Shown here: piece after piece, positions 29,372 to 38,065 of the stretch
How positions within the stretch are numbered: position 1 is the stretch's first letter
Layout: each line of letters begins with the position of its first letter
Source of the DNA: Powellomyces hirtus
Taxonomy: Eukaryota > Chytridiomycota > Chytridiomycetes > Spizellomycetales > Powellomycetaceae
Direction of reading: 5' to 3'
Assembly: GCA_025526995.1 (NCBI GenBank)
Contig: JAHLKG010000005.1
Coordinates: 496,001-560,000, forward strand
DNA length: 64,000 bases
The notes under the pieces: generated by a model
What the model was told of the DNA's origin: nothing
Databases searched by the model: none
Seen by the model: only the letters and a program-made list of their open reading frames with translations
Position numbers and translations under genes: made by a program

Positions 29372-29726
29372 TCTTTAACCAGACTATCTTTGTGTCTACC
29401 AGTAAGGTCAGGGGGATGATCATTTCGCCTAAGGACTTAGGGTTAGGGTTAGGTACAATCTAACGAAGGAATCTTGCGCGCGTCGCGTTATTTGGACAAT
29501 TCGGAATTGAAATCACTCCGTTCCTGGAAAGGTCGTTGTAGTGTGGTCTGCGAATGATGAGCCTACCGGGAAAAAGCAGCCAGCTATACATAGGGGCCCT
29601 GCACAAAGTGTCGATGGTTCAAAACCTCAATTGCTTCAAATGTGGCTGCTGGCATGGCGTGTCACTGGATCGATCAACGGTACGCGGAGCTCTCCGGCCT
29701 CTTTGTCTTCCATAACTTGGCTTGCA
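29372..29726. promoter_or_regulatory. Divergent promoter between F-box and Thi6 genes
   Basis: About 355 bp hold both promoters and the telomere-like repeat at 29437-29453. A plus-strand frame from 29541 is continuous with the Thi6 start and would add 62 residues, but these do not resemble the family. I see no thiamine riboswitch motif here. Confidence 0.5.
29437..29453 (+). repeat. Interstitial telomere-like repeat (TTAGGG)
   Basis: Two full TTAGGG units and a partial third stand in a row, 66 bp upstream of the F-box gene start. TTAGGG is the telomere repeat of most fungi and animals. In several fungi the same word in promoters is bound by Tbf1/Teb1-type Myb proteins. The context is clearly internal, with genes on both sides, so it is not a chromosome end. 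Confidence 0.85.
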
Positions 29727-31393
29727 ATGTCCAAACCGAGCTTCGACTTGTCACTGTATCTTGTCACCGACCAAAGCCTCCTTCCGAAAGGAAAGGATCT
29801 GGCGGAAGTGGTCGAAGCGGCCATCGAAGGGGGTGTAACGCTAGTGCAACTCCGTGAAAAGACTCTGGACACAAGATCATTTGTCGAAACAGCTCAACGC
29901 ATTCTCAAAATATGTCGAGCTGCCAATGTCCCACTGCTGATCAACGACAGATTGGATGTAGCGCTTGCTATTGATGCAGACGGAGTGCATCTCGGTCAGA
30001 ACGACATGCCTGCTGCGACTGCGAGAAAGTTGCTCGGCCCCAACAAAATTGTCGGTGTTACTGTCGAAACAGTTGACCAAGCCTTGCTGGCCGTGAAGGA
30101 CGGAGCTGACTATCTGGGAACCGCCGCGATCTTTGCGACCAACACCAAGAAGCATCCCGACTCGTTTAAGCCGCTTGACTTTGAGGGTGTCAGGGAGATC
30201 TTGACCGCGGTTGCTCACGTCCGAATCCCTGTGACAACAATAGGTGGAATCAATTTGCAGAATGTGGAGGACGTGCTCTCGAAAACGGTTTTGACAGATG
30301 GATCTGGATACCGGCTGCAGGGAGTGGCCGTCGTGTCAGCCATCATTGCACAGTCGGATCCCAAAGCTGCCTCCGCTGCCCTGTTGGCAAAGATTCGTCC
30401 TTTGACAACATCTAGCCCGTCAAAGTCCCTCTCTGGGGCTGACGCAGCCGCCTCGATACTGGTGGAGCAGGTTGCTGATGCCTTCAACCTCCTCAGGGCT
30501 AAGAAACCTCTGATTCACAACATAACAAACTATGGTATGCGATGCATATTTTTAACAGCACAGTGTTTCCTCTACTAAACCGTCCTTGGACAGTCGTTAT
30601 GAATGACACAGCCAACGTCATTCTTCAAACGGGCGGATTGCCTGTTATGGCGCACAGTAACGAAGAAGTTGCCGACATCACAGCAGTGTCTCAGGCTTTG
30701 GTCATCAATATTGGTACACTATCACCGCAATGGATCGATGGAATGAAAATCGCAGGAAAGAAGGTCAGCTTCACAGAATACCTCAAGGAGAAAGTTTGGC
30801 AATGACTAAACGTGTCTGAGTACTGCTACCAGGCAAACGAAGTATCCGTACCTATCGTTCTGGATCCCGTAGGCGCGGGCTTCACCCCATTCCGCAAGAA
30901 AACCTGCATGGAGCTGATACACGAGCTGGACATCACCATTATCAAAGGCAACGCTGGTGAAATAGGAGCCATCGCGGGGATGGAAGGCCTGGAAATGCGC
31001 GGAGTCGAAAGCGTCGGAACCATGGAGGACCCGGAACAAGCCGTGCGAGCCCTGGCCCACGATCTGAAGTTGTGTGTGGCCATGTCCGGAGCCGTCGACG
31101 TCATCTCTGACGGAACCAGAACCGTGAGTATCAAAAACGGAAACGAGTGGCTTGGTACACTTACCGGTACTGGATGCTCGACCACCGCTATGATTGCGTG
31201 CTTTGCGGGCGTTGTCAAGGATCCGTTGGTGGCGGCTGTGGGCGGATTGCTCTGCATGGGCATTGCGGCGGAAGTCGCAGTGAAGCGAAACGTTAATGGG
31301 CCGGGAAGCTTCAAGGTTGCGTTGCATGACTCCATCTTTGGTTTGACAGATGAAGTCATCCGGGAAAAGGCACGTCTCACGGTAGCGAATTAG
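29727..31393 (+). CDS. THI6: Bifunctional thiamine-phosphate synthase / hydroxyethylthiazole kinase
   Basis: Three exons, 29727-30534, 30594-30763 and 30833-31393, give 512 residues. The N-terminal half (about 1-225) is ThiE, which joins the pyrimidine and thiazole phosphates to make thiamine phosphate: LSLYLVTDQSLL, GGVTLVQLREK, LLINDRLDVALAIDADGVHLG and the phosphate-binding VTTIGGIN. The C-terminal half (about 250-512) is ThiM, which phosphorylates hydroxyethylthiazole: PLIHNITNYV, VMNDTANVILQTGGLPVMAH, VPIVLDPVGAG and GTGCSTTAMIA with the catalytic Cys. The ThiE-ThiM fusion is the normal fungal Thi6. The start at 29727 (MSKPSFDLSL) is chosen because upstream residues do not match. It lies tail to tail with the FANCM/Hef-like gene across 308 bp, where I see nothing but 3' flank. 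Confidence 0.96.
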
Positions 31394-31701: not shown

Positions 31702-34700
31702 TCAGGCAAATTCCACATCTTGCTTGTCATTGGCTTGCTTCGCCGGGACAGCCGATGCTTGCAAAAAATTGTGAATTTTCTTAGCGCGGCCCAGACTCAG
31801 ACCAGGTATGCGAGCCACCATATCCGCGGGCGAGCAGTTGACAAATTCTCGCAGCGATTTGAACCGTGAGTTCATAATGGCGATGGCCGTAACATCAGAA
31901 ACGCCGGGAATGGACATCAAGAACTGAACAGCCTTTGTGAAGTCCACTTAGATACTACGAAAACGAGGACCTGGTGACGAGGACCTGAGAACATACCTGG
32001 TTATTCTTGGCAGGCAACATATCCGGAACATCCATCGACGCTCCTTCTCTAGCTTCCTTTGTTGCGAGTGTGAAGAGCAGATGCGCACTGTAGTCTATCA
32101 TCCATTATGAGTAATTTGATAGAGCACAGGTACACTGGGATGCCAATGCCTTACCAGTTGACTCGCTAAAGAGAACTGTAATTTGCATGCGCAATAGAGA
32201 CGCGATGATCCCTTCGTATTGTGCGGTAGCAGCCCTGAGATGAATTGTCAGCATCAAGTAAAGGAATGACCACAACAGAAATTGAAATCAAAAGTCTCAC
32301 ATGCTTTCGGAATTTTCCTCGTCGGCTTCAATCAAAAGGATAGGGCGATCACACATCGCTTTTAAGTTGCTGATTTGCTCGTACACGCGCTTGTTGAACA
32401 CACTGCTCAAAAGATCTGCAAACCCATATATTGCTGATGAGCATGTGCATTTGCATTGGCCATAGTGATATCTGCTGTACCTGCTCTAGTTTTGCGCTCG
32501 ACGGCGATGCGATTGCTCAGCACTACAAGTATGTCAAAATTCAGGCGTCGTTGAAAGAACCAGTATATCTCTGGAACATACCATAGTCGCCAAATGCCAG
32601 TTGTCGAATTTCCACCCTCACATTATGAATATTTCTGAGCTTGGAGCATATCTAACAAGGTGGTGTCGGTCAGACAAGATATGGCGAGCAGCTTCCAACT
32701 GTATTGTGCCATACACGTACCGATGACCTCATCTCGCGAGTATCTACAAGAATCGTGACCTTGCTTTGCACACACTGTTGCACTCGGTGTATGTGCGCAT
32801 GAGGATCGTGCTCTACAAGGAGCACTCCCTATAAGGGCAAAAATGGATCCCCAGTTCGTCTCTCGAGTTGTTCTCTTTTTGGTCGCATGTGGTCCCGTCA
32901 GCGATCACGTACTTTTTGCTCTTCTGTAAGCTCCTCAATCGGCTTCAATGGCGACGGGCCGTGCATCGCAAATGGGCTGAATGGACTTGCTTTGTTGGCA
33001 GCAAGCGCGTTGGATCGAGGAGTTTTGGTATTCAATGGTGTCATGACTAGACGGGACGAGGAGGTTTGTGGTTTGGCTGGTGTTTCGGCGAGGTAGTCCC
33101 ACTGGTCATCTTCCCAATCGATGTTCATGGAATCCTCGATTGCACTCTGTGCGAGTTCGTCAAGCTCAGGATCATCCGTCACGGTGTGTAGCGCATTTGC
33201 TTGGTCAATCCTGCCAGCGGTATCGGCCAGAAGATCGTGCTCTGCAGAGGCCGAGTCTTTGAAACGACGCGAATCTGTGCCTGTTTGTCCGGATCTTGCA
33301 TGATTCGAGAAGATAGCCCCACCGCGGCTGCTTCCCGAGTCATTGCCAGTTCCCCGCTCAAGCTTCCTTTCTGACCTTTTTTTCTGTGCAAGAGGGCTAT
33401 CCATTTCCCAACCTCCTGCCGCCGGCCCATCATTTACCTCCGCATGGGTTGGGTCTCGTGTAGAGTCCAAAAACAAATCTTCGCCATCATCATCTTGATT
33501 TTCGATCTGACTCACACATGCGGATTGAGTCCCAGGGGTTTTAACACCATGCAAGTCACTAAGCTCGTCTTCATCGTCCACAACAAATCCACTAAGCGAA
33601 TCGTCTTCTTCGTCTTCTTCGACGTCATTTCTTCTAGTGGGAGTTTCAGCGTACGGTCGTCGCCGGCGTCCAGGAGTTGAGCGTCCCCACGCAAACTTGT
33701 ATCCACCATGTGCTCGCTGTCCCATGCCTCCCATGGATGGGCTCAACAACGACTTCTGGTAAAAGGCCCGCATATCGGTTGGAGAAGCGTGCAAATCACC
33801 TGTCGAAGGTGCGGACTGTGACCCCCTTGAGCGGGCAGGGGTATCGTGATCATTCACTACAAACCCGCTCAGGTCTTGATCCCAGTCTTCCGTTGCTTCT
33901 TCATCACCACTGTGCGCACCGTCGCCGTCTGACTCCTCAGCCTCGATGTCCATGAAAGGATTTGGTTCGTTGGAGACGGACTTGCTCGGCCTTCCACTTT
34001 TCGGCTGCCGCTCTGTGCTTCGCGTTACCACAACGGTAGGTAACTTCGGAGAGCCACGATGGGCGGGAAGCTTCCTTGGAGCCTTTTTTTGCGCCAGACG
34101 GGCCAAGAGGCTCTCTACACGCGTTTGGCGAGTTTGCTTGACGGCCGGGCTACCCGGCGATTTTATGATGGACACGGGTGAGATATGCTTGTGCACCGCT
34201 TTGACTTTGCGGATACGTTTCCGTGTCGACGCGACTTGTGATGCCCATTGAGAACCCGCAAACTCATCGTCCCCTCCGAGATCAATAATTCTTCTGTTGC
34301 TCTTCACCATAAGCGGGGAGTTTTCTACACTAACAGCACCCTCATCCCTGCCAGCAGGGGCTGGCGTCCTAGGAACTGACAATATTTCGGCGTTCTCAGC
34401 GTTGAGTTTTCCCTGGAAAGCGCGTCGTGTCGGGGTTTCGGTTGTCTGCAAGCTTACATTAGAAATAGGCTCTGGAATCGTGAACTTGAAGGCTGATGCA
34501 CGCTGGGTTGTCCTCTGAGAATCAAAGACCTCCGCTTCTTCCAAAGCTTCGATGTTGTCCAATTCTGCGAAAAAAGCATCATCGACAAAGAAGTCATCTT
34601 CGGAAGGGTACGCGAAGTCGGAGGTGGTCGGTTCCAATTCGCCTTCGCAAACATTGTCTTTAGTTGAGGTCCCATTCGAATGTTTTTCCGCTGTCACGCT

Positions 34701-37700
34701 TTCAACGTGCGAAGTCGCCTTTTCTACGGGTATCTCAGAAGACCCAGGTTCATCCCATTCATCCGCGCCATGTACGAGGAGTGGCGAAGACAGCAAAGCA
34801 GGTACATCCTTGTCTTGCCCAATAGGGGATATGGCGCTTTCCCACTCCATATCCTCTGATTCCACGGGAATTGGCTCGAGCACACTTTCGTCAACGCTAG
34901 GATCAAAGATCAGGCAGCCTTCGTCATTTGCCCAGTGAAGCGATTGATCGATGTCGTGATCAGGCAGTGGTAACTCCTCCGGGGCCGCAACCGTTCCATT
35001 GTTCCCAGGACTGCTCGGTTTCGCAGATTTCGGGGGAGGCGTTATAACGTCCAAGGTTGTAGAGCCACGCTTTCGCTTGCGTAACGGTTCGTCGGCAGTA
35101 TCGAATGATAAGTACGAATCCGAGAACCTGTCCGCCGCTCCAAATTTAGCGCTCCGCAATGCGAAAGGGATTTCTGACATGAGCATCTCGTCTACGTCAT
35201 CATCCCCATCATCCATCAGGTCCTCAATGCCTCCACTCAGTCGTCTTGGCACCCGTTCCTTCATATGATTAGGTGAGCGGGTATCCTTAATCTTCTCTTT
35301 AGATGCGCGCTGGGACTTATCCTCCTTTGCACTGGCTGCCTTGGCCCGTCGCGGCTTTTTCGTGACAGGTGTGACGACAGGAGCAATCTCTGGCAGGATA
35401 TCCGAATCAAAGGCTGCGTCATCATCCGTGCTGTCATTGCCCAGATTTGCAAAAGTTTCGTCCAGTTTATCCAAATCGAGAGGACGTTTTCTCTTTTTTG
35501 CAGGTTTATTCATCGTGCTGTCTTCGTCATCTGAGTCAGATACTTGCGGAAGATCGATTTCGTCTTCAGACTCAGCAGCTTTTCTCTTCCGCGATCCTGC
35601 CTTCTTTTTGGCTGCGGTTTTTCGTGGGGCTTTCGGCTTGGGAACCTTCACTTCCTTAACCTTTGCGGCCTTCTTGCTGCGTTTCGTAGATTGATATTCG
35701 GGAATCTCCAGATGGGTTTTGACACAAACTGGTTTGGGCCCTGGCGGGAGCATGCGGCACATATCGTCGGGATACATTTGCAGCTTCTTTCCTTGCTGGT
35801 TCAGAATGGCTTTTTGCACTGACTTGTATTGTGATTGAGAGCGTTTATGAGCCTCTTCTTCTTTGCCTTCTGTTAGCAACAGCACAATTTTCCCTTCTCG
35901 TTTCCTCCCAGTACGACCCATGCGTTGCAACATTCGTATGGGCGAGTTCTGCGCATCGAAGCAAATGATAAGATCTACTTCTCCGATATCAAGACCCTCT
36001 TCTCCGATACTGGTGGCAACAAGAACGTTGTAATTGCCCTTCTGGAATTTGGAGATGACCTGCAAAAAGTATAGTCAGCATATCGTCAAGATCTGAGGTT
36101 AGAAGAGAACGCACAAACCTCTAATTGCTCTTTCTGTGTGAAGCCCTTCTTGTTCGATTTCCCAGCGGCTGCTTGTCCAACAAACGACATGACTCGCACG
36201 AGTGGGTCGTGTTCCTCCAGGGCTGTCTTGATCTCTTCGACACTATCGCGGTACTGGGAAAAAATCATCACTCGTGTTTCCCCAATCTCGTCGCTTCGCC
36301 CCTGCTGAGCTAGTCGCGCCACTTCCTCCTGATGTTCCAAAAAATGTTGTACCACTGTGATAACTAGACGCTCCAGTTTCGGATGACTCGAGAAAGTCGG
36401 CAACGTTATCATGTTTTCGATTTGCTTCATGAGCTGGACTAGATTTGGGTTTTTGCACAATTCCCCGCGGGATCTTGATACACGGCCGCCCGATTGCTGT
36501 GATTCTTGGATATAATGACTCAGGGTGCTGTAGCACGTTCTTATCCCATGCACCGTCAAGAGTTGTAGGGCGCCGGCAAGCTTTTTGAAATACGAGAATG
36601 GCTGCATGTCAGTCAATTACGTAGGACTTCGACAATGCGAAAGTAAACGCACCATCATGGCAACGCCAAAGTCTCCTTCAAGACCAGCGGCACGTCCAGG
36701 CGTCATACCGCCCCCCGATCCACGGCTTTCCTCCCGCCATCGCTCTCTTGCTTTGAGCAGCTCGTACTTTCCCATGTTCGATGCATCCGCACGGAAGAAA
36801 GCTTTGCCTTTGGCCAGTCGAGCGAGGAACGGTTCGCACACTTTGTTCAGTGCCGCTCGGATTTCAAGAATTTGACCTGACAATGGAACAGTGATTGCAT
36901 CAACCGTGCGATGGTGTATGAATGGCTTGATGTCAAGCGAGTCTTCGGTGCGGATTTCAATCCTGGATATCAGAGTGTTTTCGATGACATTCTGCACAGT
37001 TTTGATGTCGCTTCCCGGGGTGGCAGTGAGGGCCAGAATCCGAAACCGTTGGTTCCTTTGCCGAAGTTCACGAATGACTTCGCAGTAAGAATGATTGCCT
37101 GTCGCGCGATGCGCCTCATCCACTACAAGTAAGACCACTTTGTTTGCCGGGCACGTCCCGCGATTGAGATCATTTTGCATGACCTGCGGAGTAAGGAAGA
37201 AGACTCGCTTCTCCAACCAGCTGACCATACGGATGTCAGGTGCAGTGGCGCCGGTCAACTCTATAGTGGCGTCCTGCAGGTTTTCAAAGAAGGAAAGACA
37301 TCATTGTCTTTGAAAGTCAACCTATAGAAACAATTGTGCGTCTACCTGAGGAAGTCCAGTGATCTTGAAGCATGCCTCGATTTGCTGAGCTACCAACGGT
37401 TTCGTTGGAGCCATGAACACAATCTTCCCTTCAGGAAACCATCTGAAGTAGTTGAACATCATGACGGCGGCGATGAATGTCTTTCCAAGACCAGTTGGCA
37501 AAGCAACTAGAGTGTTGTAGAACAATCCTTTGGATATAATGTTGAATTGATAGTCTCGAAGTGAGACATTTGTCGGGAAAATCCATGTTTTGATGGCTTC
37601 CTCGTCCATCTTGTGCAGATCTGGAATGTATCCGGCTCCTGCAAGATCCTTTGGAGAGGTTCTTGTGGTGTCGTCATCCGCATTACCCGAAGCGACTGCT

Positions 37701-38065
37701 CTTATGGGGCCGCCGCCTGAAATCAACGTCGTCTGTTTGCTGGGCACACGGTGATATCCTGGTGCGGCTGTACGAGCCGTCTGGCCAGAAGCAGACCTGC
37801 CACCGAGAGACTCAAACAAAGTGGTTTGCCGACAGAAGGCTGATCCAGCGTCCCTTATATGATCTTTTGGCGGAGCTCTGTTGTCTCCGTCGATCGGTCT
37901 GATTCTGGTTGCGGCCCTGTGAGGATTGGGACCTGATTGCAGAGAGAAGCTGCTGGCCCCACTCGTAATTGCGGCGCCTGCTTCCTCCACGTGCGCCAAT
38001 GCCTGCAGGAACGTCTGGTCGTCCACGGCAAACTCATCAAAGATATCGTCATTTCCCTGATCCAT
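31702..38065 (-). CDS. FANCM/Hef-like DNA helicase with intact-looking XPF-type nuclease and helix-hairpin-helix
   Basis: Eleven exons: 37346-38065, 36653-37273, 36119-36601, 32913-36059, 32721-32828, 32582-32651, 32481-32522, 32301-32415, 32155-32234, 31997-32094 and 31702-31932. All phases agree, for 1,904 residues. The helicase has ALPTGLGKT (about 195), [10 protein letters not shown] (about 290), ALTATPG and [14 protein letters not shown] (about 655), typical of FANCM/Mph1, which remodels forks and D-loops. About 1,000 mostly disordered residues follow. Then comes an ERCC4-type nuclease: VDTREMRS (about 1685), [20 protein letters not shown] with Glu1725-Arg-Lys1727 and Asp1731, and NKRVYEQ. 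A helix-hairpin-helix ends the chain ([11 protein letters not shown], then [14 protein letters not shown]). This is the archaeal Hef order. Yeast Mph1 lacks the nuclease and vertebrate FANCM has a decayed one. The junction of helicase and nuclease parts rests on one 84 nt intron (32829-32912) in phase 0. Confidence 0.88.

Follow-up and report, generated by a model that had tools for sequence, protein, structure and literature searches.

A predicted Hef-like FANCM with an intact nuclease active site in Powellomyces hirtus and other chytrids

Does any eukaryotic FANCM still carry, in working order, the nuclease that accompanies the helicase in archaeal Hef? The question is raised by a gene of the chytrid Powellomyces hirtus, found on the minus strand at 31702..38065 of the window (the whole stretch of 64,000 nucleotides analysed here, positions 496,001 to 560,000 of contig JAHLKG010000005.1 in assembly GCA_025526995.1). 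The predicted product is a FANCM/Hef-type helicase-nuclease, and the reading favoured here, with a probability of roughly 0.7, is that chytrids kept a Hef-type helicase-nuclease ancestral to FANCM, in which the nuclease is retained and probably active.

The gene model comprises 11 exons and 1904 amino acids, and runs by predicted splicing from an ATG at 38065 to a sole, terminal stop ending at 31702, with no internal stop. All ten introns are GT-AG and 51-84 bases long, and the last of them ends at 31933 with the acceptor AAAG/G, keeping the frame. Pfam was scanned on residues 1-736, residues 1601-1904 and exon 4 including its linker, with matches beyond chance to DEAD (72 bits), ResIII (77 bits), Helicase_C (79 bits), ERCC4 (77 bits, E 1.5e-21) and HHH_5 (30 bits). 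The DEAD/ResIII motor (residues 167-332; 36998..37567) spans the intron at 37274-37345 and contains GLGKT at residue 192 and DEAH at residue 292, and Helicase_C (residues 555-661; 35901..36280) spans the intron at 36060-36118. Exon 4 (32913..36059) holds the end of the helicase and the long linker, which separates helicase and nuclease by approximately 1000 residues; in this exon the Pfam scan picks up no more than the closing part of Helicase_C, plus, on the same stretch, a Cas3-like match below threshold. The ERCC4 nuclease domain (residues 1685-1804; 32069..32747) is distributed over exons 5-10, and a helix-hairpin-helix (HhH) with PG in both hairpins (residues 1831-1886; 31759..31926) is encoded with the stop in the last exon, exon 11 (31702..31932).

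The signature residues listed in the original prediction, which was made from the letters of the window, are all in the model, and the numbering of E1725 and D1731 agrees. VDTRE starts at residue 1685 (32747-32733, in exon 5, 32721..32828), GDYVLS at 1714 (GDY at 32591-32583, in exon 6, 32582..32651), ERKTRAD at 1725 and NKRVYEQ at 1738. Exon 7 (32481..32522) holds ERKTRA, from 32499, and the codon of D1731 is split by the next intron and completed in exon 8 (32301..32415), which also holds NKRVYEQ (32395-32375). The Hef-type active site GDXnERKX3D is intact, and all eight residues by which the active site of human XPF has been defined (PMC5983712) are identical at the corresponding positions: D1686, R1688, E1689, D1715, E1725, R1726, K1727 and D1731.

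That helicase, intact XPF-type nuclease and HhH stand in one predicted chain, as originally proposed, is confirmed by the gene model, the Pfam matches and an alignment to the Spizellomyces punctatus orthologue SPPG_08433 (P0001, 1886 amino acids), which is annotated as one gene. The junction that had been queried is intron 4 (32829..32912; 84 bases, GT-AG). The helicase frame stops inside this modelled intron, at TGA 32898, as it would if 31702-32828 were a separate gene beside an Mph1-like helicase gene, and just one transcript, XM_016756588.1 from Spizellomyces, is reported to back a joint model in any chytrid (PMC11061109). However, directly upstream the exon-5 frame runs into a TAG, and no in-frame ATG precedes VDTRE, so the nuclease domain could start there only with a further exon; the alignment to P0001 is free of gaps across the join. 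Just ahead of the join, exon 4 closes with a block, GPSPLK...LT.EQK, whose GPSP portion is common to seven proteins (the P. hirtus protein, P0001, P0009, P0013, P0022, P0023 and P0032). Because a start of its own is lacking and the homology runs unbroken through the join, a separate nuclease gene was rejected and is considered extremely improbable. At about 32955 the same block reads SPLK in the P. hirtus protein, P0001 and P0013, a version that resembles a cyclin-dependent kinase site and stands just ahead of the nuclease.

Several public chytrid models end or are gapped at the sites of P. hirtus introns. The Geranomyces models P0010 and P0011 stop at the intron 4 site, P0013 breaks after REVKC (intron 5), P0012 and P0029 after ERKSRS (intron 7), P0021 and P0023 near ESM (intron 8) and P0014 at PDKKN (intron 10). 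To judge from the protein ends alone, these breaks look like read-through into introns and not true loss, and the nuclease is probably under-annotated in chytrids.

The distribution of the active site was surveyed in 126 sequences, made up of the best 120 of 3960 matches to the Spizellomyces helicase (scored among the 7976 candidates sharing most words), other protein-search matches and the P. hirtus protein. An ERCC4 domain is detectable in 78 of them. The full motif is present in 9 of the 12 chytrid-group copies, a group to which P0029, which has no name, was assigned by the analyst; in the remaining three the sequence is either garbled at GDY (P0002) or breaks off after ERKSRS (P0012 and P0029, the latter also with an alanine for the glycine). 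The original suggestion that this fungus may keep the helicase-nuclease was too narrow; many chytrids are concerned. The motif is also full in 4/4 XPF-like sequences, in 0/2 Dimargaritales and in 0/60 animal (n=57) or unnamed (n=3) copies, with the animal copies straying from it in many different ways. The further claim that vertebrate FANCM lost the catalytic motif is borne out by these counts and by human FANCM, which reads CDXnERRX3E, in contrast to the full motif of P. hirtus, and has no detectable nuclease activity (PMC3905867).

Five animal FANCMs keep all but the glycine (CDxnERKx3D), four from amphioxus (P0062, P0079, P0089 and P0093) and one from a chiton (P0061). Many archaeal Hefs have ADY where P. 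hirtus has GDY, and for that reason the glycine may not matter; the nuclease could be partly retained in amphioxus and chiton FANCM too. The Mph1/Fml1-type fungal FANCM, a type named for Mph1 of S. cerevisiae and Fml1 of S. pombe, has the same helicase but no listed nuclease domain; other fungal matches, Mortierella species for example, are listed without PF02732. Yeast Mph1 and plant FANCM were originally said to lack the domain.

An intact site could also be kept for binding metal or DNA, in which case the domain would not cut but would be a platform for docking and dimerising, like that of human FANCM-FAAP24. The human ERCC4 domain, for which nuclease activity was not detected (PMC3905867), nevertheless binds duplex DNA (PMC12263834), and two further observations speak for a platform: the net charge of the chytrid domain is no higher than in animals, and several invertebrates keep nearly all active-site residues. 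Net charge was set aside as a sign of DNA-cutting ability, as it does not separate chytrid from animal domains. Against a mere platform, seven chytrid rows show no variation at any of the nine motif sites, in an otherwise diverged sequence (43 of 150 columns are invariant overall), whereas animal copies depart from the motif variously; simple drawing gives p=6.8e-6 for this invariance, a figure that shared descent makes too small. A platform without cutting is on balance unlikely, and a retained, probably active nuclease is preferred.

The same domain pair has been reported in Chytriomyces confervae, Powellomyces hirtus, Rhizoclosmatium globosum and Spizellomyces punctatus as two-domain FANCM-XPF proteins (PMC11061109), which have the architecture of the present gene and very likely belong to the same family. 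In that paper the pair is read as a fusion event, in which a chytrid ancestor would have joined FANCM to an XPF endonuclease. The origin of the nuclease domain is addressed by profile scores, which for each of eight chytrid copies are highest with animal FANCM (111-178 bits, against 84-130 for Hef and 44-88 for XPF-like sequences), the XPF-like profile scoring lowest in 8/8. By profile and similarity comparisons, the C-terminal ERCC4-(HhH)2 region of P. hirtus is closest to FANCM, and animal FANCM is the closest named family for helicase and C-terminal domain alike, with the same domain order. Both animal FANCM and archaeal Hef carry the domain at the same place.

Domain trees were built from rows chosen by the analyst, namely 20 of 60 archaeal Hefs with a strong nuclease match, 8 of 12 chytrid copies (P0002, P0021, P0023 and P0029, being broken, short or unnamed, were omitted), 14 of 60 animal or unnamed copies, both Dimargaritales and four XPF-like rows, or six in an enlarged tree; the XPF-like rows were labelled by domain and length, none being named XPF by its source. 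A union of the chytrid FANCM nuclease with two chytrid XPF rows was rejected by the approximately unbiased test (p-AU 1.3e-60), as was a union of the P. hirtus domain with the XPF of the same genome (2e-11). A joined MUS81 row, which in the first tree was very long (2.94) and stood beside Hef, was dropped for the chytrid-XPF tests and for the test of a deep grouping of chytrid FANCM with all XPF-like rows. That deep grouping was not rejected (p 0.41), nor was it with MUS81 restored and two more XPF-like rows (p 0.35), results that leave the fusion some support. On the question originally posed, whether the domain might be a fragment of the XPF/Mus81 family, the trees speak against a union with chytrid XPF but not against the deep grouping. 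An XPF fusion of chytrid age was rejected by these tests against chytrid XPF and is held to be very improbable, while it is likely that the domain goes back to a Hef-type ancestor and is no recent gain.

The helicase was compared separately. That of P. hirtus is 78% identical to the nearest, from Geranomyces, which is grouped with Powellomyces in the Powellomycetaceae, and 72% identical to that of Spizellomyces. In a tree of 52 rows, a eukaryotic clade including P. hirtus and animal FANCM is split from the archaea with support of 100/100, placing the P. hirtus helicase outside the Hef clade; an Asgard origin is not shown by this tree. Because its helicase falls with eukaryotic FANCM, the P. 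hirtus protein would be a FANCM that works like Hef, and not a transferred Hef. A scan of prokaryotic genomes with FANCM-helicase patterns gave at least 528 confirmed matches, of which the best 80 are considered here, the top ones being Hef of Lokiarchaeota. Among these 80 the helicase is present in 80/80 and a nuclease of at least 70 bits follows in the same frame in 60/80, Lokiarchaeota included, so that archaeal Hef does share the helicase-nuclease chain predicted for P. hirtus, as had been claimed. Most of these archaeal frames are only 710-850 amino acids long, compared with 1904 for P. hirtus with its linker. At some loci without a counted nuclease the sequence is interrupted by a contig end or a frame break, and in L041 and L058 the nuclease match is too weak to count. 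The Lokiarchaeota Hef-like helicases L041, L068 and L080 are without a clear ERCC4 beside relatives that have one. A consensus-query search for FANCM with nuclease in other eukaryotes returned seven chytrid proteins and one XPF-like protein.

Retention with separate losses would be the simplest story, because the site is intact in Hef and chytrids and broken in animals and Dimargaritales. The ancestral status of the helicase-nuclease, as originally suggested, is supported by the profile scores, the domain trees and the shared architecture of archaeal Hef, but not proven, and cutting itself would be an extrapolation from the intact site. A broader proposal is given slightly better than even odds: when fungi and animals last shared an ancestor, its FANCM would have been a true Hef, which chytrids still run as a single-chain fork-remodelling helicase and active fork endonuclease. 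The nuclease would have died in the animal lineage and, separately, in Dimargaritales, and other fungi would have lost the whole domain. The human Fanconi scaffold would then be a dead enzyme whose living form is found in chytrids.

By analogy with Hef, the P. hirtus protein would likely act as a eukaryotic Hef, in which the helicase would remodel stalled forks and the nuclease would cut them. Hef has been called unique in its nuclease family in that helicase and nuclease domains are both active, and rearranging forks in vitro reportedly takes both (PMC3905845). At stalled forks that have a gap in the leading strand, its nuclease domain is reported to cut the template (PMC5717133). In the chytrid protein the motor might regress or unwind the fork and a C-terminal dimer might cut at the junction, with metal-dependent cleavage of stalled forks and flaps. 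Dimerisation could take the form of a Hef-like homodimer, a guess made because no FAAP24 was detected; structure modelling covered the Spizellomyces nuclease domain as a monomer.

What was already known is the domain pair in chytrids; what is new is the probable orthology of the nuclease domain to FANCM's own and the intact active site. The available part of PMC11061109 does not discuss the nuclease active site of the chytrid protein, the word "catalytic" occurring once in its main text, about FANCJ, and in the literature outside subscription journals and preprints the portions available yielded no statement of a eukaryotic FANCM with an intact nuclease site. A retained nuclease would correct the published gene-fusion reading of the same proteins (PMC11061109). 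Given a eukaryotic FANCM whose active site is intact, it becomes possible to test how the protein went from enzyme to scaffold, whether FAAP24 pairing arose with nuclease loss, and what role a fork-cutting FANCM has beside XPF and MUS81.

Elsewhere in the P. hirtus genome, XPF (C10), MUS81 (C2) and an EME1-like gene (C1) were read by eye, and ERCC1 of the Rad10 family (C13) is also present. A search of the genome with Geranomyces FANCM placed its five strongest matches all in the FANCM gene, the other 12 being far weaker. For FAAP24, PF17949 had no match in the genome, although small intron-split genes can escape such a search; MHF1 had none either, which does not imply absence, and the silence of MHF2, FANCD2 and FANCI is not proof of absence, as the positive controls were also silent. 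A reduced Fanconi pathway is possible. The MHF-binding domain (PF16783) likewise had no genome match, with its positive control also silent, and was not found in residues 1-736 or exon 4 of the P. hirtus protein or in Geranomyces P0010, while the same Pfam scan detects it in P0001 and P0009. Many surveyed FANCMs have no listed MHF-binding domain, which is hence not a universal FANCM mark. In P. hirtus and P0010, the helicase is followed by a lysine-rich tract in place of the MHF-binding domain of Spizellomyces and Borealophlyctis FANCM. At residue 79 of the P. hirtus protein, a PCNA-box pattern search had no match to a ten-residue N-terminal stretch that is taken here to resemble the PCNA-binding box of other FANCMs. 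The convergent neighbour of the gene, at 29511-31393 on the plus strand, looks, from its reading frames, like a thiamine synthesis enzyme in two parts, a phosphate synthase and a thiazole kinase.
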